Of a stretch of 64,000 bases of DNA, positions 28,523 to 53,457 are shown in pieces; position 1 is the stretch's first letter; each line of letters begins with the position of its first letter. The DNA comes from Cocleimonas flava (lineage in GTDB: Bacteria; Pseudomonadota; Gammaproteobacteria; Thiotrichales; Thiotrichaceae). Position numbers and translations under genes: made by a program. Below the pieces are notes generated by a model. That model searched no databases, had not been told where the DNA came from, and saw only the letters and a list, made by a program, of their open reading frames with translations. The stretch is taken from positions 868,001-932,000 of the forward strand of contig NZ_SMFQ01000003.1 in NCBI RefSeq assembly GCF_004339015.1. Reading direction: 5' to 3'.

Positions 28523-29773
28523 ATGGACACAAAAACTCAAGTGACAGATTCTCTTATCAACGAATACCATGTTCAAAGCAGAGCTAATAAAGGCCCTGAA
28601 CCAACCGCATTACAACCCACAAAAGCAGAATCCCCAGAGGGATCTGTTAATGAAAATATCGCTGTAGTCGTTGAAAGGGTTTTAAATAAAGACTCTTCGA
28701 TGCTGAAGAAAGGAACGGTGCAACCCGTTGGTTCAGATAAATTCAGCGCTTGGCAGATGACCTGTGATGAAGGCGGAATCAATTATGAACAATCCTCCCC
28801 TAATCCCTTAAGTTATCTAACAACCGGAATCACATCCAATCTACTCACTCAGTTGCAACGGGGCATAGAGATCCTCAATCTGGATGTTGATAGCCTAAAG
28901 GTTGAGGCAAAAGTTTTCTTTAGGTTTCACGCCCCAATGTCAACACAATGGGCTGGGTTTACGGATAAGGTGGTTGCTAATATTTTAATCGTAAGCAAAG
29001 AACCTGCAAAAAAAATAACTGAACTCAAAGAACTAGCGCTGCGTTCCTGGGCTGCTGGTGATGGCTTGGCGAATAACACGGACATAGAACCGGAGCTTGT
29101 GATCAATGGACAACATTGGGACAACAAACATTCAATGGCTGGAAGTGTCCCTGACGACGTTTCAGTCGATAATGATCTGACACTTACCACCAAAACGTCT
29201 ATGCTAAAACCTGAAACTCTGGAAGTTGAGGAAGCTGTCGGCATAAGCCCAACGTCATTGCTAAAGAAAGATATTAAATTCGCAGTAGTGGCAATCGCAG
29301 AATCGGCTAACGATACACAAAGACCTTATCTACAAAAAATAAAAGTCAGAGCTATTCAGAAAAACTATGCATCTTGGGAGCTCTATGCAGATGACAGCTA
29401 TGGCTATGACGGATTAGATAAAGCACCTACATCCCTGGATTACCTAACCGCCGGAACTGCTTTTTGCCTGACCTCTCAGCTAGATTTAAACTTCAATTTT
29501 TTTCAGATAATAAACAAAAGCTTTTCTAAACATCATATTGAAGACTATCGCGTAGAACAGCAGATTAACTACAGAACAGAGAATTTCATGACGCCAAAAA
29601 TGGCGGGTTATGCCGACAAAGTGATTACAAAAATTGTAATCAAAGGACAAGTCTCCGAAGAAAACGCCAATAAGTTTTTTAATCAATCACTACAGATGTG
29701 TTTTGCAGGCGAAGCCTTTAAAGATGAAACAGAAATCGTATCAACAATTTATCTGAATGGAGAGATTCAATAA
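28523..29773 (+). CDS. Tandem OsmC-like protein (two copies of the fold)
   Basis: This 416-residue protein is not an obvious single-family match, but both halves share the OsmC pattern: a Pro-containing loop, then a long helix (SPNPLSYLTTGITSNLL at 92-108, APTSLDYLTAGTAFCLTSQL at 301-320) and a later helix. OsmC/Ohr peroxidases use two cysteines on these helices. The second half keeps both (Cys315, Cys393); in the first half the aligned positions are Asn106 and Trp176. A single active unit with a degenerate partner is the simplest reading, to be tested by structure prediction. The first 45 residues look disordered. Followed by the array platform at 30066. Confidence 0.6.
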   Translation: MDTKTQVTDSLINEYHVQSRANKGPEPTALQPTKAESPEGSVNENIAVVVERVLNKDSSMLKKGTVQPVGSDKFSAWQMTCDEGGINYEQSSPNPLSYLTTGITSNLLTQLQRGIEILNLDVDSLKVEAKVFFRFHAPMSTQWAGFTDKVVANILIVSKEPAKKITELKELALRSWAAGDGLANNTDIEPELVINGQHWDNKHSMAGSVPDDVSVDNDLTLTTKTSMLKPETLEVEEAVGISPTSLLKKDIKFAVVAIAESANDTQRPYLQKIKVRAIQKNYASWELYADDSYGYDGLDKAPTSLDYLTAGTAFCLTSQLDLNFNFFQIINKSFSKHHIEDYRVEQQINYRTENFMTPKMAGYADKVITKIVIKGQVSEENANKFFNQSLQMCFAGEAFKDETEIVSTIYLNGEIQ

Positions 29774-29819
29774 TACTGAAACACTTCCTGTCTAAGATAA
29801 GCGTAAAAGATACTTATAA

Positions 29820-29848
29820 GTCACCCCCCCACTTATAGAGGCTTTTTT
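29820..29848 (+). repeat. Dispersed C-tract motif, copy 7
   Basis: GTCACCCCCCCACTTATAGA followed by GGCTTTTTT, 246 bp before the attI-like sequence. The bases after it (a GTTTAGGCAAAAAT-like stretch) are shared with copy 15, which has the same position before the second attI-like site. Confidence 0.85.
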
Positions 29849-30065
29849 CAGTTTTTTGTTTAGGCAAAAATAAGAGTATTTTCAGCTACGTTTCAATATA
29901 TTATTTTAACTAAGATACTTATAAATATTGACTAATGTTACTTTAATAAATCAGTTATAGAGAATTCTTGCATACACCCCACTGTTAAAAACAGGTGATG
30001 CCTTAATAATATAAAATGTCCACATTACCTCTCAATAGACTGCTCTGCTTTTAAAACTATTAGCT

Positions 30066-30188
30066 TCTGTATAGTAAGATAATTAATGCCGAACTATTTA
30101 AAACATCCATTTGTAGCGCCGCAAACTCGCATAAATTGAGCTAATCCGTATAGTAAGATATTATTTGCGTCTGTATAATAAGCTGTTA
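30066..30188 (+). other. attI-like sequence, copy A, head of cassette array 1
   Basis: A 123-bp sequence nearly identical to 48748-48870. It contains three direct repeats of a 16-bp unit (the first here GTATAGTAAGATAATT, then GTATAGTAAGATATTA, last GTATAATAAGCTGTTA). The last ends in GTTA, and the two copies lose identity just after it, as expected at an integron crossover (G^TTRRRY). A TATAAT hexamer lies 5 bp before the GTTA. The region 29849-30065 upstream is AT-rich, with no gene seen. No integrase gene is adjacent. Confidence 0.6.
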
Positions 30189-30207
30189 GAGTAAAAAGGA
30201 GAAACAT

Positions 30208-30903
30208 TTGTCTACAACACTAGATGTATTTGGTATTTTAAAAGAAGTTCTTCCGACAATTTTACCATCAGTTGCTATTGCGGGTGCTGCTGCCGTTCTT
30301 GTAAACGTACTTACCTCAAGAATAATAAAACCAGAAAAACAAGCAGACAAAGCGAAGGAAAAGCTTTTTAATTTATTAAATAAACACCTTTCAGATGGTG
30401 GTGAACTAGATCTTGATTTCTTGAACTATTTAAAATCATCTATAGAGCGCGAGTTTAATATTGTAATAACAATTTCTCATGTTTTAGAAGATTTTTTAGT
30501 GCATCGCTTACAATCATCAAAAAACGAAAAGGATGGTTTAGACACGCTTCAAGAATTGAAAGAACTATTAGAATCCGAAAATAAAATTAAACCTTTTGAT
30601 AGTTTGCCGTCAGAGGAAAGAAGACTTTTAAAAGGCCTTAGAGATTCTATAAATAATGATGTATCACCAGAAAGTACATATTATTTTATAGATGAACTAA
30701 GTACTGTAATGTCTGTAAGGCATCAAGAATACTCTAGAGCTCATCAGACAAATAAGTGGTCAGTTCCTTTAGCTATAATAGGTTTAATATTTACAATTAT
30801 TTTTGGTTTAATTAGTCTCTTCAGTGCTCCAAACGAAGAAAAAATAGCGGCTAACCTATCTAAAGAGCTTACAAATCAAAAAGAAAATTCTTTAGTAAAG
30901 TAA
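30208..30903 (+). CDS. Cassette-borne membrane protein of unknown function
   Basis: This 231-residue protein starts at a TTG behind an AAGGAG site. It has an N-terminal hydrophobic segment (IAGAAAVLVNVLTSRII, near residue 25), a long charged helical region (about 40-190) and a second membrane segment near the C-terminus (VPLAIIGLIFTIIFGLISLF). I do not recognise it. First cassette after the attI-like sequence, ended by an attC site at 30933. Confidence 0.7.
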   Translation: MSTTLDVFGILKEVLPTILPSVAIAGAAAVLVNVLTSRIIKPEKQADKAKEKLFNLLNKHLSDGGELDLDFLNYLKSSIEREFNIVITISHVLEDFLVHRLQSSKNEKDGLDTLQELKELLESENKIKPFDSLPSEERRLLKGLRDSINNDVSPESTYYFIDELSTVMSVRHQEYSRAHQTNKWSVPLAIIGLIFTIIFGLISLFSAPNEEKIAANLSKELTNQKENSLVK

Positions 30904-30932
30904 TACTATCGCTATGTCGTCTATGATGAAAA

Positions 30933-31004
30933 CTCTAACAAGGTGCTTCATCGGAAAAACTACTCGCTCGCGCTCGCATTTTTCCGCTGAGCAAGGCGTT
31001 AGGT
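30933..31004 (+). other. attC recombination site 1
   Basis: Left core CTCTAAC, right core GTTAGGT. The inner arms CGGAAAAA and TTTTTCCG pair, with extrahelical bases, as in single-stranded attC hairpins. Confidence 0.85.
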
Positions 31005-31056
31005 GTAACTAGCGTTACGGCTAGAACTCCAGATGATAATTATAATAGCTAATTTT

Positions 31057-31085
31057 GACACCCCCCTACTTTTCGGCACTTTTTA
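31057..31085 (+). repeat. Dispersed C-tract motif, copy 8
   Basis: ACACCCCCCTACTTTTCGGC followed by ACTTTTTA, between attC site 1 and the next cassette gene. Confidence 0.85.
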
Positions 31086-31143
31086 TAAGTAATAAAACAT
31101 GGGAATATTTAAGCTAGAAAAACTTTAGATATAAAGGAAAAGA

Positions 31144-31542
31144 ATGGACACAATATTCGCATTACTAGTAATAGCGCTAGTATATTTATGGCCAATGCTT
31201 TTGTCTGAGTATTCTTTATTTAATTATGGCAATCAAAAGACAATTCAGCTTCGCATTAAGTTCTATTTAATCAGTTATGGTATATGGTTCATATTTCTTT
31301 ACGGAAATTTATATTTAGCACTCTATCTACAGCCAAAAGCATTTCAACATTCTCAAGAATGTAACTTAAATCTTAATGAGTGTAATGAGTTTTTTATTAG
31401 AGTAACTGATTTTATTTATTCATCTGGAAACCTATATTGTCATTTATTAGCATTACCATTTGCTTGGTTTGTGTTACGTTGGCAGTCAAACATACCTAAC
31501 AAGGTGCTCAAAAAGGAACGCCAAAAGCGGGCGTCCTCTTAG
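31144..31542 (+). CDS. Cassette-borne small membrane protein of unknown function
   Basis: This 132-residue protein has three or four hydrophobic segments (residues 3-20, 34-56, and near 95-115) and two cysteines in a loop (ECNLNLNECNEF). Function unknown. The reading frame runs into the following attC site, so its last 15 residues or so (KVLKKERQKRASS) are encoded by attC sequence; this is common for gene cassettes. Confidence 0.65.
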   Translation: MDTIFALLVIALVYLWPMLLSEYSLFNYGNQKTIQLRIKFYLISYGIWFIFLYGNLYLALYLQPKAFQHSQECNLNLNECNEFFIRVTDFIYSSGNLYCHLLALPFAWFVLRWQSNIPNKVLKKERQKRASS

Positions 31543-31555
31543 CAAGGCGTTATGT
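31494..31555 (+). other. attC recombination site 2
   Basis: Left core ACCTAAC, right core GTTATGT. Shorter than its neighbours, with stem GGAACGCC...GGGCGTCC. The upstream gene ends inside it. Confidence 0.8.
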
Positions 31556-31573
31556 GTCTGCGACGCTAAATAG

Positions 31574-31601
31574 AAAAAGTGGCTAAAAGTACGGGGGTGT
31601 C
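31574..31601 (-). repeat. Dispersed C-tract motif, copy 9 (reverse)
   Basis: AAAAAGTGGCTAAAAGTACG followed by GGGGTGTC: reverse orientation, interrupted by one base (ACGGGGG). Its G-rich end lies 6 bp from the ATG at 31608 and could stand in for a ribosome binding site. Confidence 0.75.
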
Positions 31602-31607
31602 AAAAAT

Positions 31608-31997
31608 ATGAAAGCAATATTCATTTCTACTGAAGGTGAATATCTTCAAGCTAAAATTGAAGTAAATGGACAGCCTTACTATGTAATGGATGAGTTTAGT
31701 TCTGAAAATTCAAAAAATGGAGAAATTGTAAACTTAGACATATTCTCAGGGCTAGAAGATGAATCGGAGGAATGGGAAAGCATATTCAACGGTAACCCTG
31801 ACGAACTAAAAAAACTTCAACATCAGTCAGGTTGGAAGTATCGAGCATACGGAAAAATCATTTCAATAAAGCCTGTCATTGTAGACATTGGTTTATTTGA
31901 AACTGAAGCACCTTTTCAAATCCAATCTAATGATATTAAGGTTATTGGTAGTTATATAGCATTTACTATTCAACGTTTAGGCGCTTCAATTGTATAA
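31608..31997 (+). CDS. Cassette-borne protein of unknown function
   Basis: This 129-residue soluble, acidic protein has an internal WESIFNGNPDELKK segment near residue 59 and a beta-rich C-terminus. No family recognised. The only purine-rich stretch upstream is the GGGGGTG of the motif copy at 31574-31601. Ends a few bases before an attC site, so it forms a complete cassette. Confidence 0.65.
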   Translation: MKAIFISTEGEYLQAKIEVNGQPYYVMDEFSSENSKNGEIVNLDIFSGLEDESEEWESIFNGNPDELKKLQHQSGWKYRAYGKIISIKPVIVDIGLFETEAPFQIQSNDIKVIGSYIAFTIQRLGASIV

Positions 31998-31999
31998 TC

Positions 32000-32071
32000 A
32001 CATAACAAGTTACAGCATTGGAAAAACTACTCGCTGACGCTCGTATTTTTCCACTGTGTAAGGCGTTAAGT
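32000..32071 (+). other. attC recombination site 3
   Basis: Left core ACATAAC, right core GTTAAGT, inner arms GGAAAAA/TTTTTCC. The OLD-family cassette follows. Confidence 0.85.
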
Positions 32072-32105
32072 GTCAATGGGAATTCTGGCACATCATGGAG
32101 GATTT

Positions 32106-33866
32106 ATGTCGCATAAAATTTCTAATGTAGTAATAAAAAACTACAAGTCATCTATTACTACTGAATTAAAACTCTCTAGTTTTACGCCTCTCGTTGGATA
32201 CAATAATGCTGGAAAATCTAACTGTCTGTCAGCAATTCAATGGCTTTTAAAAAAGTCGAGTTTAGCTGAAAAAGACTTTTTTGATGCTTCGCAGCCAATT
32301 GAAGTGATTGCGACTATTGAAGGAATAACACAAACACTCCTTGATGTAATGCCCGCAAGACAAAAAAGCTCAATTGAAAATTACATTCAAAATGAAACCT
32401 TGAAAATAAGGAGAGTGCAAGAAACACCAAGCGCGAAAACTGCTGAGATTAAAATCTCGGTTTGGAATGATTCAGATAATGATTGGGCTGTAAACCCAAC
32501 AGGTTTAGATGCTGCAATTAGCGTACTCCTTCCAGAACCAATTAGAATAGGTGCGATGGAAAATGCAGCTGAAGATGCTTCAAAAGCTAAAACCTCAACG
32601 ACAATTGGGAAATTACTCGGTGAGTTTTTAGCTCCTGTGAAAGCGGCTCATGAAACAGAGTTAAACCAACATCTTGATGAAGTTGGTAGAAGAATATCAT
32701 CAGACGGTGATATGAGATTTTCTGAATTATCTACAATTGATCAAAATGTTAATTCAAAAGTTAATGATTTATTCCCTGGTATGAGTGTTAAATTGCATTT
32801 TGATACACCAACAATAGACGAACTTATTAAAGCTGGTACATTAAAAGTTTTTGAAGGGGTTGGGAGCGGAAGAGACTTTTCTTCATATGGGCATGGTGCA
32901 CAGCGTTCAATTCAAATGGCGTTAGTACAATACTTAGCGGAAGTAAAAAGAAGTAATAACAATTCCAATTCAACTACCTTACTTTTAATTGATGAACCTG
33001 AGTTGTATTTACACCCCTTTGCTATTGAGCAGATTAGAGAAGCATTAGTTGATTTGTCATTAATTGGATATCAAGTTTTAATTACAACTCACTCTGCTCA
33101 AATGATAACCCCTGAATTAGCAGAGAAGACACTGCTAATAAGAAAGAGTGATACTTCAGGCACACATTCAAGACTCAGATTAACAGACGCTATCCAATCT
33201 GTTGTTCCAAATTCAACCCATCAAATGGAGCAAATCTTTAACTTAGCACACTCTAATCAAGTGTTGTTTGCAGAAAATGTAATATTAACAGAGGGTAAAA
33301 CTGAGTTAAGACTACTTCCATTTATATTTAAATCTGTCTCTAATTTAACTATGGGCCAAGAAAAGCATGCGCTTATTGCCCAAAGTGGTGTACACGATAC
33401 TAAAAAGTCATTAGAGATATTAGCTGCAATGGATTTACCTTCTAAAGCAATATGTGATTTAGATTATTGCTTTGTTGGAGCTGTAAGAGATAATTTCCTT
33501 CAAGCAACAGACCAAGATTTATTGGATCTGAAATCATTGTTACCAAATCTAGTGCAATCACACGGTGTTACATTAAATGGTAACGGTTTACCTCAGAAAA
33601 ACAGTACCATAAATGCAGCAGGTGCCTTTGAAGTTTTAGCCAGCCAAGCCGCTGCTATACCTTTAATAGAATCTTTACATGAAAAGATGAAAGCTCAGAA
33701 TATTTGGATCTGGAAAAAAGGTGCTATTGAAGCGCATATCGGTATAACTAGCAAAAATGAGATCGCTTGGGCTAAATTCAAGAATGATGTAATAACTGAC
33801 GGGTTATCTCAAACATGTAATGATCACCAAGGCTTATTAGACTTGGTAGATTGGTTACGAAATTGA
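32106..33866 (+). CDS. OLD-family ATP-dependent nuclease, cassette-borne
   Basis: This 586-residue protein has an ABC-type ATPase domain with Walker A (VGYNNAGKSN near residue 30) and Walker B LLLIDEPELYLHP (near 293). It is followed by a TOPRIM-like domain with the Glu of VILTEGKTELRLL and an Asp pair in ICDLDYCF. This is the layout of overcoming-lysogenization-defect (OLD) nucleases and the related GajA subunit of Gabija; such proteins often act in phage defence. I place the start at ATG 32106 behind a GGAGG site; an in-frame ATG at 32070 lies within attC and is less likely. No GajB-like helicase is next to it. Confidence 0.87.
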   Translation: MSHKISNVVIKNYKSSITTELKLSSFTPLVGYNNAGKSNCLSAIQWLLKKSSLAEKDFFDASQPIEVIATIEGITQTLLDVMPARQKSSIENYIQNETLKIRRVQETPSAKTAEIKISVWNDSDNDWAVNPTGLDAAISVLLPEPIRIGAMENAAEDASKAKTSTTIGKLLGEFLAPVKAAHETELNQHLDEVGRRISSDGDMRFSELSTIDQNVNSKVNDLFPGMSVKLHFDTPTIDELIKAGTLKVFEGVGSGRDFSSYGHGAQRSIQMALVQYLAEVKRSNNNSNSTTLLLIDEPELYLHPFAIEQIREALVDLSLIGYQVLITTHSAQMITPELAEKTLLIRKSDTSGTHSRLRLTDAIQSVVPNSTHQMEQIFNLAHSNQVLFAENVILTEGKTELRLLPFIFKSVSNLTMGQEKHALIAQSGVHDTKKSLEILAAMDLPSKAICDLDYCFVGAVRDNFLQATDQDLLDLKSLLPNLVQSHGVTLNGNGLPQKNSTINAAGAFEVLASQAAAIPLIESLHEKMKAQNIWIWKKGAIEAHIGITSKNEIAWAKFKNDVITDGLSQTCNDHQGLLDLVDWLRN

Positions 33867-33867
33867 C

Positions 33868-33968
33868 ACTTAACAAGCTATTAAAAAAGGACAAAAAACA
33901 GTTGATTTTTGCTCCTTCGTCGCTAATTTTAGCCAACTATTTTATTGCCTGTTAACAGGGCGTTAAAC
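33868..33968 (+). other. attC recombination site 4
   Basis: Left core ACTTAAC, right core GTTAAAC (a perfect GTTRRRY). Longer (101 bp), with a different central sequence from sites 1-3. Confidence 0.75.
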
Positions 33969-33983
33969 CTAGGAGAAGAAATA

Positions 33984-34340
33984 GTGAATATGAAGGAGTT
34001 TTCGAGTCTAGTTGGTTTGTCTTCTTACACTCTGAGATACTATGAAAAAATAGGTTTACTTAAAAATGTTCAGAGGAACAGTAGTGGGCATCGAGTTTAC
34101 ACATCGAAAGATCTTAGATGGATTGAGTTTGTAAAGCGCTTAAAGGACACAGCCATGCCACTTGAAGAAATTCAAGAATATGCACGGTTAAGAGAAGCAG
34201 GTTCCAGCTCTGTACTTCAACGTCAAGCTTTACTAGAAAAGCACAAAAGAAATTTAATAGATCATATTACTCAGCAGCAATCTCACCTTGCAGATCTAGA
34301 AGATAAAATTGACTTATATAAAAAGGGAAAAGTCCGTTGA
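33984..34340 (+). CDS. MerR-family transcriptional regulator
   Basis: This protein of about 118 residues has the MerR winged helix (KEFSSLVGLSSYTLRYYEKI, then GLLKNVQRNSSGHRVYTSKDL) and a dimerisation helix (about 75-115). No metal-binding cysteines are visible, so it is of the AdhR/NmlR-like subgroup without metal ligands. Start at GTG 33984 (ribosome binding site AGGAGA) or ATG 33990; the longer frame from 33945 overlaps attC. It probably controls the carboxymuconolactone decarboxylase gene 57 bp downstream, in the same cassette. Confidence 0.87.
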   Translation: MNMKEFSSLVGLSSYTLRYYEKIGLLKNVQRNSSGHRVYTSKDLRWIEFVKRLKDTAMPLEEIQEYARLREAGSSSVLQRQALLEKHKRNLIDHITQQQSHLADLEDKIDLYKKGKVR

Positions 34341-34397
34341 CTTAGAGTTAACTCTAACTTGTATGCTGCGCTTGTACATAAAAACAGGAGCATGCAA

Positions 34398-34775
34398 ATG
34401 GAACAATCACGTTTTGAAACTGGATTAGAGTTACTGAAAAAGATTGATGGTGAGGCTGGTCAAAAGGTTATCGAGAGTCTGAAAGATATTTGTCCGGATT
34501 TAGCTAAGTATACAATCGAGTATCCTTTTGGCGATATTTATGCTCGTGGCGGGTTAGATTTGAAATCACGAGAGATTGCCACGATAGCAGCACTCACTGC
34601 ATTAGGTCATTGTGCCCCTCAACTTAAAGTGCACCTAAATGCTGCTCTAAATATTGGCTACACAGAGGAAGAAATAAAAGAAGTGATACTTCAAATGTCC
34701 GTTTATGCAGGTTTCCCAGCAGCTTTAAATGGCATGTTTTCTTTTCAAGAAGTACTTGCTGAACGAAAGGAATAA
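34398..34775 (+). CDS. Carboxymuconolactone decarboxylase-family protein
   Basis: This protein of about 125 residues has the CMD (AhpD-like) pattern: ALTALGHCAPQLKVHLNAAL and a downstream NIGYTEEEIKEVILQMSVYA segment. Only one Cys is present in the active-site region (GHC), not the CxxC of AhpD, so a peroxidase role like AhpD is not supported. Start at ATG 34398 behind CAGGAG; an in-frame start at 34359 is less likely. The MerR gene 57 bp upstream and the following attC make a two-gene cassette. Confidence 0.85.
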   Translation: MEQSRFETGLELLKKIDGEAGQKVIESLKDICPDLAKYTIEYPFGDIYARGGLDLKSREIATIAALTALGHCAPQLKVHLNAALNIGYTEEEIKEVILQMSVYAGFPAALNGMFSFQEVLAERKE

Positions 34776-34894
34776 CAAAAAATTAAGAGTTACTCGCTAC
34801 GCTTGGCGCCCTCACTTCAAGTCAGTTTAGTGTTTATGGCACAATGCTTTAGGTAAGGTATTAGCGTTTTTCACACCTTAATTTTGCGTTATAC
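34770..34894 (+). other. attC recombination site 5, long (VCR-like) type
   Basis: Left core GAATAAC, right core GTTATAC. The outer arms AACAAAAAATTAAG and CTTAATTTTGCGTT pair. 125 bp, like Vibrio VCR sites, with a VCR-like centre (CAGTTTAGTGTT). Confidence 0.8.
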
Positions 34895-34911
34895 GTAGAA
34901 AATAATAAATT

Positions 34912-35246
34912 ATGATAGAAGCTCAAAAAATCATCTGTAAAAATCAAGGCGTAGATACAGTATTTCCAGAAGCATATGAAACATTAGGTATAGCATTATC
35001 TACACTTGGGGAAAAACTATAAACGGTTTACGCCATCCTTTTGAAAATGGGACTTGCGGTTGGTATATATGGTGCGGTGAAGATCTACCTGAAGACCCTG
35101 AATTCTTTGACTCAATGCATGTAAGTCACATTAGCGAATATCTACCAAGCATTGAAAAGTATTTGGCGTTACCTGTGGGTTATAGATTTTTAGTTACAGA
35201 GACTTATGAAGATATTTGGTACGATGAAACACTTAAAAACGTATAA
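34912..35246 (+). pseudogene. Imm33/DUF2185-like immunity cassette gene with frameshift
   Basis: The frame from ATG 34912 gives 36 residues ending LGEKL-stop at 35022. In the next frame a 73-residue continuation follows, to 35246 (GLRHPFENGTCGWYIWCGED, later YLALPVGYRFLVTETYEDIW). Adding one A to the A5 run at 35012-35016 joins both into a single protein of about 110 residues (LGEKTINGLRHP). The second part has the sequence pattern of Imm33/DUF2185-type immunity proteins. A one-base loss in a homopolymer is the simplest explanation, either real or a sequencing error. Bounded by attC sites 5 and 6. Confidence 0.7.
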
Positions 35247-35312
35247 CAAGTTTCCTCCTAGGAAAAATTACTCGTTCGCGTTCGGATTTTTCTGCTGAGC
35301 AAGCCGTTATAC
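35241..35312 (+). other. attC recombination site 6
   Basis: Left core GTATAAC, right core GTTATAC, inner arms GGAAAAA...ATTTTTC. Confidence 0.8.
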
Positions 35313-35341
35313 AATCAAACCAATAATAGAGAGACTTTTAC

Positions 35342-35674
35342 TTGTTTGAACTAAAAACAATAACCTTATTCCTAATTACTGCTGTTGCAGAAATAGTTGG
35401 TTGCTATCTTCCATACTTATGGCTTAAGCAAGGTAAAAGTGTTTGGTTACTTATTCCAGCCGCTTTGAGCTTGGCTCTTTTCGCATGGTTACTATCACTT
35501 CATCCAACGGCAGCGGGTAGAGTTTATGCCGCTTACGGTGGCGTTTATGTATTTGTCGCCATATTATGGCTCTGGGGTGTAGATGGAATTAAACCCACCT
35601 CTTGGGATATTTTGGGGGGCATAGTTGTGTTAATCGGTATGGCAATAATTATGTTCGCACCAAAAAACCTATAA
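35342..35674 (+). CDS. ynfA: YnfA-family small membrane protein (UPF0060)
   Basis: This 110-residue protein has four hydrophobic segments and the family pattern ([20 protein letters not shown] near residue 15, [20 protein letters not shown] near 54, [17 protein letters not shown] near the end). YnfA proteins are relatives of the small multidrug resistance family, with proposed efflux function. The start is a TTG at 35342. A complete gene cassette: attC 6 precedes it, attC 7 follows. Confidence 0.9.
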
Positions 35675-35730
35675 GCAGTTACTACAGAGGAAAAACAACT
35701 CGCTGTTTTCAGCTGAGTAAGGCGTTAGAA
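35669..35730 (+). other. attC recombination site 7 (degenerate left core)
   Basis: Right core GTTAGAA is good; the left core reads CTATAAG in place of ...AAC. Short, with arms TTACTACAGAGGAAAA and a reduced GCTGTTTTCAGC stem. Confidence 0.65.
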
Positions 35731-35768
35731 GCGGTCAAATAAACATTTAGTTTAGAATGGAGATTTAA

Positions 35769-36395
35769 ATGCTAGAACTATCTCAAATATTTACTTACAT
35801 TGCCGCACTTGCAATAGCCGCCGCAATCCCGGGTCCAGGTATGACAGCTCTTGTTGCTCGCAGTGTAAGCTCTGGAGCATTAACTGGATTTGCTATGTTA
35901 GCTGGACTAATTTTAGGTGACCTAACATATCTCTCTTTCGCAGTATTTGGGCTGGCCGTCTTAGCTAAGAGTTTCAGTGTTTTATTTATTATCGTTAAAT
36001 GGGGTGCTGTTATTTATCTCTTGTATCTTGCTTGGCAGTTTTGGACAGCTGATCACCAATCGTTAAACGAAACAAACATTCCTAAGCGTAAAGATCTTTT
36101 TTCAGCAGGTTTATCTGGTTACACAATTACACTAGGTAACCCTAAAACAATCGCTTTCTATCTTGCTTTGTTGCCTGTGATTATCAATCTAGAAATGATA
36201 ACAATTCAAAGCTGGGCATTTATATTAGTTCCTTTAACAGCTACGGTTTTACTATCTGTTGGAGCCGTTTTTATTCTTGGAGCAATTGCAGTTCGCCATA
36301 TATTATCAAGTAAAAAGGCCCAAAAATTGCTGCATCGTGGCGCCGCTACAACAATGGTTGTTGCGGCTGGAACAATGGTTGCCAGAGAATCATAA
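35769..36395 (+). CDS. LysE/RhtB-family amino acid exporter
   Basis: This 208-residue protein has about six transmembrane segments and the LysE signature (AIPGPGMTALVARSVSSGAL near residue 19, with the typical Pro-Gly-Pro). The segment GLSGYTITLGNPKTIAFYLA near 117 matches the second family motif. It likely exports an amino acid or derivative. Cassette-borne; a GGAG site precedes the ATG. Confidence 0.9.
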   Translation: MLELSQIFTYIAALAIAAAIPGPGMTALVARSVSSGALTGFAMLAGLILGDLTYLSFAVFGLAVLAKSFSVLFIIVKWGAVIYLLYLAWQFWTADHQSLNETNIPKRKDLFSAGLSGYTITLGNPKTIAFYLALLPVIINLEMITIQSWAFILVPLTATVLLSVGAVFILGAIAVRHILSSKKAQKLLHRGAATTMVVAAGTMVARES

Positions 36396-36420
36396 TAATT
36401 TATAAATTAGATATTAAATT

Positions 36421-36525
36421 CTCTAACAAGTTTACCCGTTATTTAGCTTTAGTAACCGTACACGTTGCTTCAACGGAAAACTACTCGCTCGCGATCGCAT
36501 TTTTCCGCTTAGCAAGGCGCTAGGT
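36421..36525 (+). other. attC recombination site 8
   Basis: Left core CTCTAAC. The right core reads GCTAGGT (one change from GTTAGGT). The inner arms CGGAAAA.../TTTTTCCG are present. 105 bp. Confidence 0.75.
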
Positions 36526-36541
36526 GACAAAGGAGAAATAG

Positions 36542-37111
36542 ATGAAATGTTGCAATAAAGAGTACCCTGATCCAAATATTATTAATGGTACTGCTTATTT
36601 TGTATGTTCAGAATGTGGTGAGGTTCGAGAGATACAAGACTATAAAATTTATTCAAAGCAAGACAGAATAGATCAATTTGAAAAGGAATATGGAGTTAAG
36701 CTTCCAAGTGATTATGTCAATTTTGCAAATAACAAAGATTCTTGGGTAGTAAAACTTTCCGCTGCAAATACGGAATCAACAAAGTACTATTTTGGCGAGG
36801 GATACTATCAAATTATCAGGTTTTATAGCCTTGACCCAAATGAAGCCGGTTCTGTTTTTGACAGTGCTTATTTGATAGAAACATGGGATTTACCAAAAGA
36901 GTTAGTACTAATCGATGGTGATGGTCATACTTGGTTGGCGTTGGATTATAGAGACTCAAAAAAAATTCCAAGGGTTATAGTTATTGAATCAGATGAAGGT
37001 AATAGCCTCGTAGTCGCAGATAATTTTAAAGAGTTTATATCAACACTATTACCATACGACAGTGTCTATGATGTTAACGGTGCAATTATCTACAATGGAA
37101 AAAGCACCTAA
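36542..37111 (+). CDS. SUKH (SMI1/KNR4)-like immunity protein with N-terminal zinc-ribbon-like segment
   Basis: This 189-residue protein has cysteines at 3, 4, 22 and 25 (YFVCSECGE) that suggest a small metal-binding ribbon, then a SUKH-like domain: an N-terminal helix followed by GVKLPSDYVNFANNKDSW near residue 51, and near residue 118 the WDLPKELVLIDGDGHTWLAL motif, which is typical of the superfamily. SUKH proteins are mostly immunity proteins against toxins of polymorphic and contact-dependent systems. Ribosome binding site AGGAG. It is an orphan, with no toxin gene beside it. Confidence 0.75.
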   Translation: MKCCNKEYPDPNIINGTAYFVCSECGEVREIQDYKIYSKQDRIDQFEKEYGVKLPSDYVNFANNKDSWVVKLSAANTESTKYYFGEGYYQIIRFYSLDPNEAGSVFDSAYLIETWDLPKELVLIDGDGHTWLALDYRDSKKIPRVIVIESDEGNSLVVADNFKEFISTLLPYDSVYDVNGAIIYNGKST

Positions 37112-37176
37112 CAATTGCTGCATCTGAAAAACAACTCGCTCACACTCGCATTTTTCCGCTGAGCAAAGCGTTATAC
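37106..37176 (+). other. attC recombination site 9
   Basis: Left core ACCTAAC, right core GTTATAC, inner arms CTGAAAAA/TTTTTCCG. Confidence 0.82.
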
Positions 37177-37264
37177 GAACAATGAGAAATGAATAACATA
37201 GAAAAATACATTATTAGTGGATTGATCTAAGTTGTCATTGAAGCACTTAGATGGCCGATAAAGT

Positions 37265-37690
37265 ATGAAATACAATAAAGTAACCTTAGGTTTTATCGCT
37301 GCTGCGATGATGAATATCGGTGGCGTACTGATTTTCTCTCGTGCGTTTACTAATTCGGCGATCAATCAATTCGACCCTGTAGTTATGTCTAACTTTGGCT
37401 TGTTGATGATCGTTGTATGGGGCTTGGCTTATTTGAGTGCCGCTACGATTACATCTGGCGTCAAATGGTTAGCAGGTGCATTTGCTATCGAGAAACTCGT
37501 GTATGTGGTTGTCTGGTTACTTTGGTTTAAGGATAACAGTCTTGGTGTTGTCTATGAGCAAGATCTATTTGCAGGCATGTTTTACAGCATCTATGGGTTA
37601 AATGACTTCGTGTTTATGTTGTTCTTCGTCTGGGTTTTCCTGACCGAAGGCAAGTCTTCAAAATCAGTAGCATCACAAAGCATTCAATAG
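37265..37690 (+). CDS. Cassette-borne four-helix membrane protein of unknown function
   Basis: This 141-residue protein has four hydrophobic segments: residues 8-30, 40-62, 66-90, 105-132. No conserved polar motif points to a family. The ribosome binding site is weak. It lies between attC 9 and a degenerate long attC, so it is the last cassette of array 1. Confidence 0.65.
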   Translation: MKYNKVTLGFIAAAMMNIGGVLIFSRAFTNSAINQFDPVVMSNFGLLMIVVWGLAYLSAATITSGVKWLAGAFAIEKLVYVVVWLLWFKDNSLGVVYEQDLFAGMFYSIYGLNDFVFMLFFVWVFLTEGKSSKSVASQSIQ

Positions 37691-37797
37691 CAGCTTCAAA
37701 AGCTTGGTATTTTCAGTTCAAGGTTGGTTTTCCTGTTTACGGTGCACTGGTTTAGTTTAGGTGGCAGCATTGCTCACACCTTAATGCGGCGTTATGT
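37684..37797 (+). other. attC recombination site 10, long and degenerate
   Basis: Right core GTTATGT with VCR-like interior (CACTGGTTTAGTTTAGGTGG). The left end (CAATAGCAGCTTCAA) pairs only partly with the right arm (CCTTAATGCGGCGTTATG). Confidence 0.6.
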
Positions 37798-37825
37798 AAG
37801 TCTGCTGTTTAACTCATTCTATTAG

Positions 37826-37853
37826 GCACCCCCCTACTTTCAGGCACTTTTTT
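37826..37853 (+). repeat. Dispersed C-tract motif, copy 10
   Basis: GCACCCCCCTACTTTCAGGC followed by ACTTTTTT, nearly ideal. Marks the right end of cassette array 1. Confidence 0.88.
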
Positions 37854-37916
37854 AGTAAAACCACATTAAAGCTTATTGTGCGAAATGACAGTCCAAGAAC
37901 GAATAGACAAGGCATT

Positions 37917-37946
37917 AGCCTTTCGTAATCAAAATCACGAAAGGCT
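37917..37946. terminator. Hairpin at the end of the zinc operon
   Basis: A perfect 10-bp stem (AGCCTTTCGT and ACGAAAGGCT) with a 10-base loop, 25 bp after the receptor's stop codon. Its position fits a transcription terminator for the minus-strand operon, although the T-run is poor. Confidence 0.6.
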
Positions 37947-37970
37947 GTCTAATCCCAAAAAACTAATCAG

Positions 37971-40043: not shown

Positions 40044-40099
40044 TTTAAAATCCTCATGCTCCAATTGCAGCTATGTACAATTGGAGCATTTGTTAGTTT

Positions 40100-47239: not shown

Positions 47240-48522
47240 CATAGGTAACACTTTAGTCCAGATACATAGGTTACACTTTTATTGATAAATAACAGCCTGA
47301 TCCTACAGCCTTATCTCTGATATCCAATTTTCCTAGCTGATAAAAGTAAAAATAAATTGCATATATTCCATCATCTACTTCTTCTAAACCAACCTGTTCA
47401 CCTTCAAGTAAATGAGTGACATATAGCCGATTATTTTTCCAATGAATAGTCCCATTTTTCTGGACAGTTCTAACTTCATAATAAGGTGGATACTCTGGCG
47501 CACTTATTGTTTCTGGAAACGGTTGTCTTGAGCTCTGATAACACTCTTTAGGTGTTTTAAAGTCTAGCGATTCATGGGGACGCTCTTCATTAAAAGCTTG
47601 TTTAAATATATCAAATCGTTCTTGCTGCAACTTAAATGAATGCTCTGGTGGATGGGTTGCATAGCGTTTTAATGTTCGATGCATACGCTCATGTTTACCA
47701 TTTTGCTGAGGCTTTCCTGGCTCTATTCGTTCAGGATGTATTCCAAGTTTTATCCACCAAGCTGATAACCTAGAAATACCTCCCACAGCTTTTGATGAAA
47801 ATGGCACGCCATTATCGCTTCGGATACGTTCAGGCAATCCATATTTTCTGAATAAATACTCAAAAGACTTTATCGTAGTGCGCGTTCCAACGGTGTTTTG
47901 AGATTCACACCCCAGTAAGTAACGACTAAAATCATCCATTAGCGTTAGTGGATAGCACCACTGCCCATCGAGTAATTTAAACTGACCTTTAAAATCTACC
48001 GACCATAATTCATTGGGGCTCGTAGAGCGTTTAAGCGGTTTTGTATAACGATCGTACCGTCTTCGACGCCTTTGTGGGTGTACTAAACCTTCTGTATGTA
48101 GAATATTATAAATGCTTGATTTTGATGGCGGTTGTTCATTCGGATAGAGCGTTTTAAGTCTTGCCTGAATTTTTTTAGCACCTGGAGTAATAACTGACTG
48201 CATACGTAACTCTATGATTTTTTTGCGAATTGCCAATGGAATACTAGCGGGATGACTTATTGGTTTACGGCTTTTCTCATAGAGTCCGTTTACTCCTTGT
48301 TCCTGATAGCGTTTTATCCACTTGTACCCTGTTTTTCGGCTAATTGAATATCGCTGACAGAGTTGAGTAATTGATAGTGATTTTTCTCGAAGCCAGTCAC
48401 TAATAAAAAGCACTTTTTGATCCATAGGTAACAACTCTTTCCAAGGCATAGGCACCTCCAGTTTTGATGCCTATAGTTTAAGAAACTGTTACCTATGTAC
48501 TTGGACTAATGTGTTACCTATG
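47240..48522 (-). mobile_element. IS481-type insertion sequence
   Basis: Bounded by 36-bp imperfect inverted repeats: CATAGGTAACACTTTAGTCC... at 47240-47275, and the complementary TGTTACCTATGTACTTGGAC... at 48487-48522, with only four mismatches. One transposase gene lies inside. No clear target-site duplication is visible. The insertion lies in non-coding DNA just before cassette array 2. Confidence 0.85.
47271..48449 (-). CDS. IS481-family transposase
   Basis: A DDE transposase of about 392 residues. N-terminal helix-turn-helix (LSITQLCQRYSISRKTGYKW); DDE-type catalytic core with Asp in ELWSVDFKGQF, Asp in RIRSDNGVPF and Glu in FNEERPHESL. Start at the ATG at 48449 behind GGAGG; GTG 48455 is two codons upstream. 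The gene ends inside the left inverted repeat. Full length, so the element may be active. Confidence 0.92.
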   Translation of the reverse strand: MPWKELLPMDQKVLFISDWLREKSLSITQLCQRYSISRKTGYKWIKRYQEQGVNGLYEKSRKPISHPASIPLAIRKKIIELRMQSVITPGAKKIQARLKTLYPNEQPPSKSSIYNILHTEGLVHPQRRRRRYDRYTKPLKRSTSPNELWSVDFKGQFKLLDGQWCYPLTLMDDFSRYLLGCESQNTVGTRTTIKSFEYLFRKYGLPERIRSDNGVPFSSKAVGGISRLSAWWIKLGIHPERIEPGKPQQNGKHERMHRTLKRYATHPPEHSFKLQQERFDIFKQAFNEERPHESLDFKTPKECYQSSRQPFPETISAPEYPPYYEVRTVQKNGTIHWKNNRLYVTHLLEGEQVGLEEVDDGIYAIYFYFYQLGKLDIRDKAVGSGCYLSIKV

Positions 48523-48747: not shown

Positions 48748-48870
48748 TCTGTATAGTAAGATATTAAATGCCCAACTATTCTAATCATCCAGCTACAGCG
48801 CCACAAATACGCATAAATTGAGCTAATCCGTATAGTAAGATATTATTTGCGTCTGTATAATAAGCTGTTA
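48748..48870 (+). other. attI-like sequence, copy B, head of cassette array 2
   Basis: Nearly identical to 30066-30188; the last 60 bp are the same. Three direct repeats (GTATAGTAAGATATTA, GTATAGTAAGATATTA, GTATAATAAGCTGTTA), the third ending in the crossover-like GTTA. TATAAT at 48857-48862 could be a -10 box for the first cassette gene, whose ATG overlaps the GTTA. No integrase gene is present nearby. Confidence 0.6.
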
Positions 48871-49265
48871 TGCATATGAATAAATTGACATTATTTAAAC
48901 AAATAATATTTTGGTTAGAATCTATTGCAACATTGATGATTCTTTGTTTTGGAATATTCCTTACAATTATGTTGTTAGCAGGTGGGAGCAATTTTCTTGA
49001 ATCAATCACGGCTTTGTTTAGCTTTACATGGTATTTAATTAAAGTGGCAATCCAGTCTTTTTCAAAAGTTCCAATTGTAGCAATCAGTTCATTATCAGGT
49101 TATTTATTATATTTAGGTTCTTTATTTTACTTTGCCCAATCTGAGAAAGAGCGGAAAATGTTAAAATTCATAATTCCGTCTTCATTTGTTGCGATTTTAT
49201 TATGTGCAATAGGTATTGCTGGTGCTGTTATGTCTGGCTTGGCTAATCAAGGTGCTGGGCATTGA
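48870..49265 (+). CDS. Cassette-borne membrane protein of unknown function
   Basis: This 131-residue protein has three or four hydrophobic segments (residues 12-38, 46-56, 66-85, 99-120). It starts at the ATG in the crossover GTTATG (48870) or at ATG 48876; no ribosome binding site is visible, so translation may be leaderless from the TATAAT box. First cassette of array 2. No family recognised. Confidence 0.6.
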   Translation: MHMNKLTLFKQIIFWLESIATLMILCFGIFLTIMLLAGGSNFLESITALFSFTWYLIKVAIQSFSKVPIVAISSLSGYLLYLGSLFYFAQSEKERKMLKFIIPSSFVAILLCAIGIAGAVMSGLANQGAGH

Positions 49266-49272
49266 AAATATT

Positions 49273-49353
49273 GCATAACAAGGCAATTAAAATCGCACAA
49301 CAAAAAGACGTTGTGCTGGACTCGCAAGCTCGCCTTTTATTGCGGCGTTAGGT
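49273..49353 (+). other. attC recombination site 12
   Basis: Left core GCATAAC, right core GTTAGGT. Inner pairing GCACAACAAAAAGACG / TTGTGC, different from array 1 types, but like attC 15. Confidence 0.8.
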
Positions 49354-49414
49354 GTGCTAGCCGCACCGCTTAAAACAAATTCTGTAACTACTACCAGACT
49401 GAAGTAATCCGAAG

Positions 49415-49906
49415 TTATAATTTCATTTGCAGTTTTAATGAAATAAATCCAGAAAAAATACCTATGCTTGCTGCACTAACTAGCAATGTGAAAGTATCAA
49501 TAGAAGGTGTTAAGTGTGAGGCAAAAAAAGAAATCAACCCTAAGAAATAACACATTAAATTGTTAAAAATAGGTAAGCTTCTTAGTGATATGACTACCAT
49601 ACCAACTGTAAACACCATAACCGGTAACGCGAAACTTCCTAGTGTTGGGGTAATGGCGTAAATACCTAAGCCAGCCAACATTCCAAATACTATACCTAGA
49701 ATAATACACCCCAGATTAATTAGCGCGGTATTCAAGTTTCCGATTTTTGTGAAAAATGCTACCCAACCTATGAACATTGCCCATACGGGTAAATTTAGCA
49801 ACAAACATGATCCAGCTGCAATAGCCGCTGTTAATGCCGCTATTGCAGTAAAAGCAAGTTGTCCTTTAATTGATGATTTTTGAATTAATGCGTTTTTTTC
49901 AGTCAT
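49415..49906 (-). CDS. DUF1097-type membrane protein
   Basis: This 163-residue protein has about five hydrophobic segments and matches the DUF1097 (YcdZ-like) pattern, with a Gly/Ala-rich first helix (AFTAIAALTAAIAAGSCLLL) and LPVWAMFIGWVAFFTKIGNL near residue 38. Function unknown. It runs opposite to the array direction, 67 bp downstream of the SDR gene on the same strand. Confidence 0.75.
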   Translation of the reverse strand: MTEKNALIQKSSIKGQLAFTAIAALTAAIAAGSCLLLNLPVWAMFIGWVAFFTKIGNLNTALINLGCIILGIVFGMLAGLGIYAITPTLGSFALPVMVFTVGMVVISLRSLPIFNNLMCYFLGLISFFASHLTPSIDTFTLLVSAASIGIFSGFISLKLQMKL

Positions 49907-49973
49907 GGAAAATGTCTCTTTTTATAAATGTCATAGTTTCAGCTTTTATAATCATTAAAATTATAAAAAATGC

Positions 49974-50714
49974 TTAAATCATGCCGCCATTGGCTCGAAT
50001 AGTTTGACCATTTATCCAAGCACCTTTTTGACCTGCTAAAAATGACACTGTATTCGCAATATCATTTGGTGTTGCAAGACGTTCAAGTGGATTCATTTTA
50101 GATAACTGTTCTATCAGTTCATCAGATTTTCCATTAAGAAAAAGATCTGTCGCAGTGGGTCCTGGCGCTACAGCATTTACCGTAATTGATCTGCCGCGCA
50201 TTTCTTTTGATAGAATTGCGGTCATAGTTTCAACAGCCGATTTTGTAGCTGCATATATCGCATAGTTTGGAAGATTTAAGCTAGTTACGGAAGTTGATAA
50301 GTTGATGATTCGTCCACCATTTTCAAATCGTTTTGAAGCTTCACGCATAGTGTTGAAAGTGCCTTTTAAGTTGACCGCTATAGTTCTATCAAATAACTCA
50401 TCGTCAGAGTCACCTAAAGGTGCGAGCATCATAATACCAGCAGAATTTACCAGTACATTAGGAATACCAACGACATTGATCGTTTTATCGAATAGCTTTG
50501 TAACCTCTGTCGGGTTTGAAACATCAGCTTTAATGGCATGGGCTCTACCGCCAGAAGTTTCTATATCGAAGACGACTTGATCTGCGGCCTCTCTATCTCC
50601 AATGTAATTAATTATTACCGCAAATCCATCTTGAGATAGTTGTTTAGCAATAGCAGCCCCGATACCTCTTGATGCTCCAGTGACTATGGCGATTGATTCA
50701 GCTTGTTTAGACAT
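49974..50714 (-). CDS. Short-chain dehydrogenase/reductase (FabG-like SDR)
   Basis: A reductase of about 246 residues with the NAD(P) motif TGASRGIGAAIAKQL near residue 12, the N-S-A-G segment near 88 and the catalytic Tyr-x3-Lys in AIYAATKSAVE near 155. FabG-like; probably NADPH-linked. The substrate is unknown. Start at ATG 50714 behind GGAG; a longer frame from TTG 50726 is less likely. It is divergent from the AraC-type gene, which may control it. Confidence 0.9.
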   Translation of the reverse strand: MSKQAESIAIVTGASRGIGAAIAKQLSQDGFAVIINYIGDREAADQVVFDIETSGGRAHAIKADVSNPTEVTKLFDKTINVVGIPNVLVNSAGIMMLAPLGDSDDELFDRTIAVNLKGTFNTMREASKRFENGGRIINLSTSVTSLNLPNYAIYAATKSAVETMTAILSKEMRGRSITVNAVAPGPTATDLFLNGKSDELIEQLSKMNPLERLATPNDIANTVSFLAGQKGAWINGQTIRANGGMI

Positions 50715-50906
50715 GATGTACTCCAACGTTAAATAGTGTATTAATTTGTATGACCATGTAATTCTATGGTGCTTCTACAAATCATTGAATACACATTACT
50801 GCTAGATTTTTGCCTATTCCTGCAAAAAAATAGTATGTTATTTTATGATAATGAATTTTACCTGTAATATTTAAGTCCAATTCTATTAGGTTTATAGAGG
50901 TATTAG

Positions 50907-51812
50907 ATGAATTCTAAGTTGGAAACAATTGCTATTATTATTAACGAATACTCTAAGGACGAAGGTCTTAATCACACTGCCATTCAGGGCGTTCACTGCT
51001 TTAAAATGTCTCAAGAAAATAATAAATTACCTGTTATTTATAGGCCTTCAATTTATGTCGTTGCTCAGGGAATAAAGAAAGTAATGTTAAGAGATGAAGT
51101 CTTTCAATACTCTAAAGGGAATTTTTTAGCTGTATCGGTTGACTTACCAATCATAGGTGAAGTTATAGAAGCAACTATTGATAATCCTTACCTATGCGTT
51201 CAAATCGATATTGACGCTAAAAAAATTAGTGAACTAGCTATCAAATTGAAGTTATGTAAATCATCAAGTACCGTGGCTCATACAGGTCTATTTGTTGGTG
51301 ATACGAACGATAATTTATTAGATGCAATTGCTAGATTATTAAAGTTATTAGAAAACCCAAAAAATATTCCTCATTTAGCACCTTTGGTTATGGAGGAATT
51401 TTACTACTATCTTTTGACTAGCCCTCATGGTTCTCAAATAATTGATGCATCAATGGTAACTAACAATGTTCAACGGATTTCTAAGGTTATCGACACGATC
51501 AAGTCTGATTTATCAAAGACAATTTTGGTAGATGATTTGGCCGCTATTGCGAATATGAGTCCTTCAAGTTTTCATAACCAATTTAAAAAAGTAACCACGT
51601 TAAGTCCGATCCAATATGTAAAACGCCTCCGTTTAACACAAGCTCGTCAGATTATGTTATCTGACAATATGGATGCTAATACTACCGCTAGAATAGTTGG
51701 TTATGAAAGCGCTTCTCATTTCAGTAGAGACTATTCAAAACTGTTTGGGGCGCCGCCTAAAAGAGATATTGCGAAACTAAAACTAAATGAAGACCAATTA
51801 CATTTTCTTTAA
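50907..51812 (+). CDS. AraC-family regulator (AraC_N/YqhC-type)
   Basis: This 301-residue protein has an N-terminal cupin-like AraC_N domain (about 20-170, with YRPSIYVVAQGIKKVML and FLAVSVDLPIIGEVIEA) and a C-terminal double helix-turn-helix (about 195-290, with LAAIANMSPSSFHNQFKKVT and RLTQARQIML). YqhC-type proteins often activate adjacent aldo-keto or SDR genes in response to aldehydes. It is divergent from the SDR/DUF1097 pair and lies within cassette array 2. Confidence 0.93.
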   Translation: MNSKLETIAIIINEYSKDEGLNHTAIQGVHCFKMSQENNKLPVIYRPSIYVVAQGIKKVMLRDEVFQYSKGNFLAVSVDLPIIGEVIEATIDNPYLCVQIDIDAKKISELAIKLKLCKSSSTVAHTGLFVGDTNDNLLDAIARLLKLLENPKNIPHLAPLVMEEFYYYLLTSPHGSQIIDASMVTNNVQRISKVIDTIKSDLSKTILVDDLAAIANMSPSSFHNQFKKVTTLSPIQYVKRLRLTQARQIMLSDNMDANTTARIVGYESASHFSRDYSKLFGAPPKRDIAKLKLNEDQLHFL

Positions 51813-52145
51813 AAATATACCTGAAACAGAATAGCCAATAGTGGTGCAAACAACGCAAATCACAAGTATTTTGGTGCATTCGCTTTTCTGAATATCTCAA
51901 TACTACACATTTATATGTTTCGCCAGAATCTCACTTTATGCGGCACTCCACGTTTATTGTTAAATTCGTTAAATTTTTAAAACAGCGCCACGTTTAAATT
52001 TTCTCTATTCTGGAAAGAGTTTATTAGTTTCACATTTAAAATACATTCGGTTACAAATGGTGTTGTTTCAAACTGTCGTTAGGTTAATTAATTCTTTGCT
52101 TAGTAACTTCTGTTAATATTTATTTTTAATGAAAATTAACTTATC
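51813..52145. other. Gene-free stretch after the AraC gene
   Basis: No open frame is supported. A lone GTTAGGT (52078) with little paired context may be a decayed attC core. It forms the last part of the DNA between attC 12 and attC 13. Confidence 0.45.
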
Positions 52146-52217
52146 ACCTAACAAGTTACATCAGCGGAAAAAAGACTAGCTACCGCTCGCATTTTTCCAC
52201 TGTACAAGGTGTTATGA
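52146..52217 (+). other. attC recombination site 13
   Basis: Left core ACCTAAC, right core GTTATGA, inner arms GCGGAAAA/TTTTTCC. Confidence 0.82.
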
Positions 52218-52235
52218 CAACATAAAGAGGGAAAC

Positions 52236-52613
52236 ATGGATACAAAAAAACATATGAAGGAAGTTCACGATACATATATGAATTACTATGTACCAGGCTT
52301 CTCAAATAACGATATGGCGATGATAGACAGAATAGTTAAATATCCAATTGCTCATATACAAAACGGTTCTGTATCTATGCATGATAGATATCCAATTGAC
52401 CCGCAACAGCTGAAGGTAAAGAAGGGTTGGGATCACACAAGTGATTGGGAATTCAAGGTTACAGCAGCTAACGAAAAACAAGCACATGCAGTTGCATCAT
52501 CTATTCGTCGAAAAAAAGATGGCTCGATCATCGAATACGTCGATGCATTTTATGCCTTCACAAAAACAAACGAAGGATGGAAAATGTTTGCTATATCAGA
52601 TGTTACATTTTAA
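52236..52613 (+). CDS. NTF2/SnoaL-like fold protein, cassette-borne
   Basis: This 125-residue protein has the look of a small alpha+beta NTF2-like domain: N-terminal helices, then strands including TSDWEFKVTAANEKQAHAVA and a C-terminal YAFTKTNEGWKMFAISDV hairpin. The latter is typical of SnoaL/DUF4440-type proteins. Catalytic function not predictable. GAGGG ribosome binding site. Complete cassette. Confidence 0.6.
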   Translation: MDTKKHMKEVHDTYMNYYVPGFSNNDMAMIDRIVKYPIAHIQNGSVSMHDRYPIDPQQLKVKKGWDHTSDWEFKVTAANEKQAHAVASSIRRKKDGSIIEYVDAFYAFTKTNEGWKMFAISDVTF

Positions 52614-52684
52614 CCATACAAGTTGCTTAATCGGAAAAACTACTCGCTCGCGCTTGTATTTTTCCGCTGAGCAAGGCATTAAAT
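52613..52684 (+). other. attC recombination site 14 (degenerate cores)
   Basis: The inner part (CGGAAAAACTACTCGCTCGC...TTTTTCCG) is intact. The left core reads CCATAC and the right core ATTAAAT, so the conserved C and G of the two crossover cores are lost. Confidence 0.7.
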
Positions 52685-52715
52685 TACCTAATCGAGAATG
52701 GAGTCTGGACGTAAT

Positions 52716-53381
52716 ATGAATGGAAAAATTAGTCAGTGGAAAGACGATAAAGGTTTTGGTTTTATTACATCAGAAGATGGTCAAAAAGTTTTTTTCCATA
52801 TTTCTAGTCTTACTACGAAAGGTAGAAGACCAGAAATTGGAGACACAGTTGTATTTACTTCAAAAACTGATAACCAAAATAGATTAAAGGCATCTAGCGT
52901 TGCAATTAATAGCTTAACGAAAGCAAATAAATATCAAGAGCATAATCAAGTTGAACCTAAAACCAAAAACAGTTTTGATTACATATTAATTTTAACGCTA
53001 ATAACTTCATTGTTATTTACTGCGTATACATATTTCAAATCAAATAGCGTTGAAAGTTCTATCATATTTGGTATTCCAGCTGTTATTGCTCTTATTCTGC
53101 TAGGTCGCGAAAAGAAGCCTAAGAACAGTTCATTTAACTGTACTAAATGTAAAAAAATTGAACGCTACGATACGAGAACGATTAGTGCTTGGAATAGAGG
53201 TTTTACGCATTTGTATTGTAATGCTTGCCACGTACAATGGTTAAGAAATAACCCTAGACAAGAAAAAAATCATTCTTCAAATAAAAGTGGAGGTTGCTTG
53301 GGGGCATTTACTTTGATTGTTGGCACTTCTTTATTTGGTGGCTACTCAGTCTTGAATTGGATCGTGCAAACGCTCATTTAA
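52716..53381 (+). CDS. Cold-shock domain, membrane and zinc-ribbon fusion protein
   Basis: This protein of about 221 residues starts with a cold-shock domain (MNGKISQWKDDKGFGFITSE, RNP1 GFGFI and RNP2 VFFHIS), then two hydrophobic segments (about 85-125) and a CxxC...CxxC zinc-ribbon-like part (NCTKCKK and YCNACHVQW), ending with another hydrophobic segment (GGCLGAFTLIVGTSLFGGYS). The combination of nucleic-acid-binding and membrane parts is unusual. Start at ATG 52716; an ATG six codons upstream is open. Confidence 0.8.
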   Translation: MNGKISQWKDDKGFGFITSEDGQKVFFHISSLTTKGRRPEIGDTVVFTSKTDNQNRLKASSVAINSLTKANKYQEHNQVEPKTKNSFDYILILTLITSLLFTAYTYFKSNSVESSIIFGIPAVIALILLGREKKPKNSSFNCTKCKKIERYDTRTISAWNRGFTHLYCNACHVQWLRNNPRQEKNHSSNKSGGCLGAFTLIVGTSLFGGYSVLNWIVQTLI

Positions 53382-53457
53382 CAAGGCCATTAATAAACGC
53401 ACAACAAAAACACGTTGTGCTGGACTCGCAAGCTCGCCTTTTATCGAGGCGTACAAC
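53376..53457 (+). other. attC recombination site 15
   Basis: Left core ATTTAAC, right core GTACAAC (G-T-A in place of G-T-T). Inner GCACAACAAAAACACG/TTGTGC pairing like attC 12. Confidence 0.7.

Follow-up and report, generated by a model that had tools for sequence, protein, structure and literature searches.

Full-length solo attI sites heading cassette arrays in Cocleimonas flava, probably filled in trans and since stranded by an integrase swap

An integron is commonly presented as one integrase gene (intI) with one attI site and one array of cassettes, and arrays that lack intI as clusters of attC sites only. Integrase-less attC arrays can be mobilised in trans (PMC12444791). We analysed a window of 64,000 nucleotides from the 4.49-Mb genome of Cocleimonas flava (G000; C2:868001-932000) and compared it with other genomes, among them Cocleimonas isolate 4-1410 (G011), a sister species of the same genus. 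The window holds two cassette arrays which, like the integrase-less arrays described before, have no intI near them, and each is headed by a copy of a 123-mer. As in attI1, attIA and other integron attI sites, direct repeats, a GTT crossover at the first cassette and a cassette promoter (here a promoter-like consensus match) are found in the 123-mer, and its homologues in G011 and in a third species (G008) abut intI, as integron attI sites do. Our best explanation, to which we give a probability of about 0.72, is that these solo sites are docking sites of an integrase of about 451 amino acids (L1), each with its own array, which was filled in trans and is now probably stranded.

Copy A of the 123-mer is located at 30066..30188 on the forward strand, with an OsmC-like gene (NF041052) as its left neighbour. 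It contains three 16-nt direct repeats on the same strand, at 30066..30081, 30145..30160 (94%) and 30170..30185 (81%), with spacings of 79 and 25, and three such repeats never occurred together in 300 dinucleotide-preserving shuffles of the sequence. The repeats adjoin the core, the third runs into GTTA, and the GTT core is present at the junction with the first cassette, where crossover is expected between G30185 and T30186. The three repeats, the GTTA end and the divergence of copies A and B exactly at that point had been reported in a first-pass annotation of the window, and all of them held up, the junction by alignment of the copies. A promoter-like site, TTGAGC-17-TATTAT (30136..30164, forward strand), lies inside the attI and is a candidate Pc by consensus match only; it is kept with small changes in all copies, its end falls within the conserved core, and it could supply each array with its own promoter. 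Immediately ahead of copy A is a 20-bp leader (30046..30065, forward strand), which recurs at the sbcD locus of G011 ahead of the solo copy there. The same annotation had found no intI next to copy A and an OsmC-like gene there instead, which was confirmed: tblastn with two Cocleimonas IntIs as queries gave no significant match in the window. The window thus holds no complete integron with intI, attI and array together, and copies A, B and C (the last outside the window) do not adjoin an integron integrase gene.

Copy B (48748..48870, forward strand) is 89-90% identical to copy A and has the same repeat spacings (79 and 25); it is identical at 122 of 123 positions to the orthologous solo copy on contig C10 of G011, with syntenic flanks. 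The third solo copy, C, is found at C2:612432-612554 (85%) and heads another array. G011 carries three copies, two solo and one adjacent to intI, the latter ending 9 bp ahead of the start codon of a 451-aa integron integrase, and the same three-repeat site stands in G008 beside a 66%-identical IntI. Since the homologue abuts the long integrase in G011 and the same pairing is seen in G008, the 123-mer was assigned to the long class (attI-L1), and judging from this homology to intI-adjacent attI it is almost certainly a real attI. The earlier reading of copy A as an attI-type platform lacking intI was supported by the same pairings. The six Cocleimonas copies that were aligned start with TTCTGTATAG or TTCCGTATAG and end with GTTA; all stop at the cassette junction, with identity ending at ...AAGCTGTTA and different cassettes beyond. 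Variable columns among the six amounted to 6 of 60 in the repeats versus 36 of 63 in the middle (Fisher p 2e-8), and to 4 of 44 in repeats 2-3; conserved repeats with a variable middle are as expected of a functional core. The promoter-like site, and the unrelated attI beside the intI of C. flava itself, would suit a dispersed promoter or other mobile repeat that stands before cassettes by chance, but this is very improbable given that intI adjoins the site in G011 and G008, that an intI remnant adjoins it in G030, and that every copy ends at a cassette junction. A pattern scan of GTDB contigs found the site in no genus but Cocleimonas, the further matches, in Clostridia and others, being due to chance. 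Two matches in viral contigs were rejected, one being a simple tandem repeat and the other without integron context, and a match in G046 was set aside as chance, ending CTGAAA and not CTGTTA within coding-like sequence.

A single integron integrase over the family cut-off (TIGR02249, 442 bits) is encoded in C. flava, at C2:1275703-1276650, 344 kb from the window. The first-pass annotation had proposed comparing copy A with the attI of the genome's own intI and had taken an unrelated site there as evidence against its reading; the attI adjoining this intI indeed has no similarity to the 123-mer, yet the pairing in G011 and G008 still identifies the latter as an attI. A 7.5-kb stretch reaching as far as the gene beside intI is 93% identical in C. 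flava and G011, and the same platform locus carries different integrases, a short one (325 aa) in C. flava and a long one (451 aa) in G011, which are about 42% identical. The platform loci are orthologous but the integrases differ, so C. flava has attI-L1 sites without the L1 integrase, and an integrase swap probably left copies A, B and C stranded. The annotation had also suggested that the platform was copied or works in trans with a distant integrase. The copy was not made from the present platform, and the C. flava integrase is not cognate, but in the ancestor and in G011 use in trans is plausible. The long Cocleimonas integrases carry about 130 additional N-terminal residues without a Pfam match (L034 1924-3279; L039; L041; L043). 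Another Cocleimonas genome (G005) has two different integron integrases, on C23 and C39, one of them with an internal TAG.

Each solo attI might instead come from a complete integron that lost its intI by deletion in place, with no copying or action in trans involved and the arrays being relics. Such a loss is seen in G030, from another genus of the same family, where the last two attI repeats abut the first ~21 codons of an L1-like intI and the rest is gone; a znuA-like gene (named by eye) follows the remnant, and G030 has no integron integrase over the family cut-off. Loss of intI has also been described in Treponema and Xanthomonas. However, no intI remnants were found next to copies A, B and C or the solo sites of G011, at least three former L1 integrons per genome would be required, and the cassettes at the locus of copy B (locus B) are wholly different in the two species, which makes deletion in place a somewhat unlikely account of the solo sites.

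Array 1 occupies 30186..37690 (forward strand), starting with its first cassette and reaching roughly to its last cassette ORF; it was delimited by ORFs and attC sites, the right limit being approximate, and its first ORF begins at 30208. Five attC sites were recognised on the forward strand, at 30935..31001 (first cassette), 32003..32068, 35244..35310, 36460..36522 and 37107..37174. The bottom strands of the first two fold (z -2.5 and -3.3) better than all but one of 200 shuffles, and the folding of the other three tested was not significant against shuffles. Array 2 (48868..53452, forward strand) has four recognised attC sites, and the sites of both arrays keep a single orientation; with at least two attC sites and no integrase near, both arrays are CALINs. 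No cassettes were found in common between arrays 1-2 and the other compared loci, the matches being attC sites and short dispersed repeats only, and one RibD-like cassette is common to the intI-adjacent array of C. flava and a solo array of G011. Solo arrays and the intI-adjacent array have a common attC family, and the attI-L1 repeats are still intact in C. flava, as would be seen if the short integrase recognised attI-L1 and kept arrays 1 and 2 active today. We regard this as unlikely, as the own attI of the short integrase is unrelated to the 123-mer, the short and long enzymes are about 42% identical, and non-cognate attI/IntI pairs recombine inefficiently as a rule (PMC8946536). Moreover, constraint on copy B beyond that of its flank was not significant, and because the region around this copy changes slowly, an intact copy does not in itself indicate constraint. 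With the cognate enzyme missing, present use of the attI-L1 sites in C. flava is doubtful.

The comparison of locus B between the two species bears most directly on use in trans. Window 43960-48872 matches contig C10 of G011 and the right flank of array 2, from 53455, is syntenic with contig C5; an IS481-type transposase gene left of copy B (47271..48455, reverse strand) was inserted after the split from G011. Within this orthologous frame, the attI differs at 1 of 123 positions and the cassettes are completely different. The same solo attI with other cassettes means that cassettes were gained or exchanged there after the species split, and this difference, taken from one genome per species, is the main evidence that would point to in-trans use, although passive loss and rearrangement could also have produced it. 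Locus A is not comparable because G011 lacks 15.2 kb there (window 28749-43959, the OsmC-like gene being cut after about 226 bp), probably through a deletion in G011. On the explanation that we prefer, stranded docking sites, an L1 integrase made elsewhere on the chromosome would have bound the solo attI at its repeats and carried out ordinary attI x attC recombination, with cassettes entering at G30185^T30186; the promoter within the site would drive expression of the first cassettes. Copies A, B and C would have been filled while the L1 integrase was present in the C. flava lineage; with the short integrase and its own attI now at the platform, the L1 sites would be stranded, or see weak use by the short enzyme at best. 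The part of this explanation in which the L1 integrase filled the solo sites in trans is likely on the sequence comparisons.

The solo copies might have arisen through insertion, by the integrase, of short DNA ending in attI-L1 at G^TT sites, including attI of another class. The 20-bp leader of copy A and of the G011 copy on C53 starts, in G011, after CGCG^TT at the end of a dispersed repeat; a degenerate attI of the second class (attI-S) lies 26 bp ahead of copy C (0 of 1000 shuffles); and in published work, cassettes ending in attI entered attI sites about as efficiently as ordinary cassettes (PMC12901181). Against such insertion, a common left boundary is seen only for the A/C53 pair and the orthologous B pair, not for all solo L1 copies. 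As to a unit flanked by G^TT on both sides, a left junction is plausible for A and C53 only. The attI-S-like trace upstream of copy A, close after which the leader starts, is weak (13 of 1000 shuffles), and at the homologous sbcD locus of C. flava, itself rearranged by an island, no attI or attC was found. We consider insertion of mobile attI units unlikely, and the evidence singles out none of three routes, namely in-place loss of intI as in G030, cassette-like movement of attI, and spread with dispersed repeats.

Two dispersed repeats were recorded in the course of these comparisons. A 26-base motif, CACCCCCCYACTTWTRGGCNCTTTTT, has 13 copies in the window versus none in shuffles (positions 9748, 18343, 29822, 31059, 31574 on the reverse strand, 37827, 41907, 46978, 54183 and 57272 on the reverse strand, and 57348, among others); it stands upstream of most solo attI sites and also within several cassettes. 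A longer repeat ending in GGGTTACCGCGTT was found at window 46545-46712, L032 8658-8793 and L033 8986-9154, and the solo attI unit on C53 of G011 begins exactly where a repeat with this ending stops.

The second class, attI-S, is the attI of the short integrase, and it too has solo copies in C. flava and G011. In C. flava, one (C2:955123-955342, 88%) heads an attC array 23 kb to the right of the window and another lies at C2:802988-803202 (77%); the two have ~370 bp of upstream sequence in common, built of dispersed repeats. In G011, which lacks the short integrase, solo attI-S copies are found on C32 and C35, and further copies occur in G009 and G003. No attC of the searched types was found beside the G011 copies or the copy at C2:802988. 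Both species thus carry solo sites of both classes, with one integrase on each chromosome, and the solo attI-S copies of C. flava match the resident integrase. Three attI-S sites of G003 (L106, L107 and L108), one of them beside intI, are followed by the same first 61-77 bp, where the contigs of this draft genome end; a single cassette may have docked at all three, though this is only suggestive. A cassette gene of array 1 (window 32070-33866) encodes an AAA ATPase with an OLD-like TOPRIM domain and a similar-looking ATPase gene follows the solo attI-S at C2:802988 (L099 9238-11010); the two are possibly anti-phage defence genes.

Should chromosomes carry scattered full-length solo attI sites, each with its own promoter and some matching the resident integrase and others not, many arrays without intI could be working capture sites, and replacement of the integrase would then be a switch that strands or re-opens whole arrays. 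Solo attI sites may have been missed because attI is too variable for a general search. Pairs of Cocleimonas species suit direct testing of in-trans use and of attI/IntI specificity. A wider model is a distributed integron, in which the single integrase of each genome acts in trans on several solo attI sites, attI units are mobile as cassette-like pieces at G^TT, even into attI of the other class, and a swap of the platform integrase changes which arrays can capture cassettes; we put it forward as speculative and rather unlikely.

Several described systems resemble the Cocleimonas sites in part. In attI-type gene cassettes, which carry truncated attI of classes 1 and 2 (PMC12901181), attI likewise occurs away from intI, but these are mostly 14-18-nt attI fragments ending single cassettes in mobile integrons, whereas here a whole attI heads chromosomal arrays. 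Insertion at attG (Loot et al. 2024, as cited in PMC11023631) also places cassettes away from the platform; as presented there, attG sites are not attI, whereas the Cocleimonas arrays are headed by true attI. In the account of Treponema phagedenis (PMC3607928), attC sites persist after loss of intI, as here, and the parts of that account available to us describe no solo attI copies or second integrase class, unlike in Cocleimonas. In the open literature searched, we found no report of solo attI sites in several copies; what appears new against those papers is that intact solo attI sites occur several times, belong to two classes, are mismatched with the resident integrase and head arrays of their own. 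Compared with the usual attI, the copies of C. flava have neither an adjacent intI nor an integrase of the matching class, and there are several per chromosome. In contrast to other integrase-less attC arrays, arrays 1 and 2 keep a full-length attI with a promoter-like site and could accept cassettes there.
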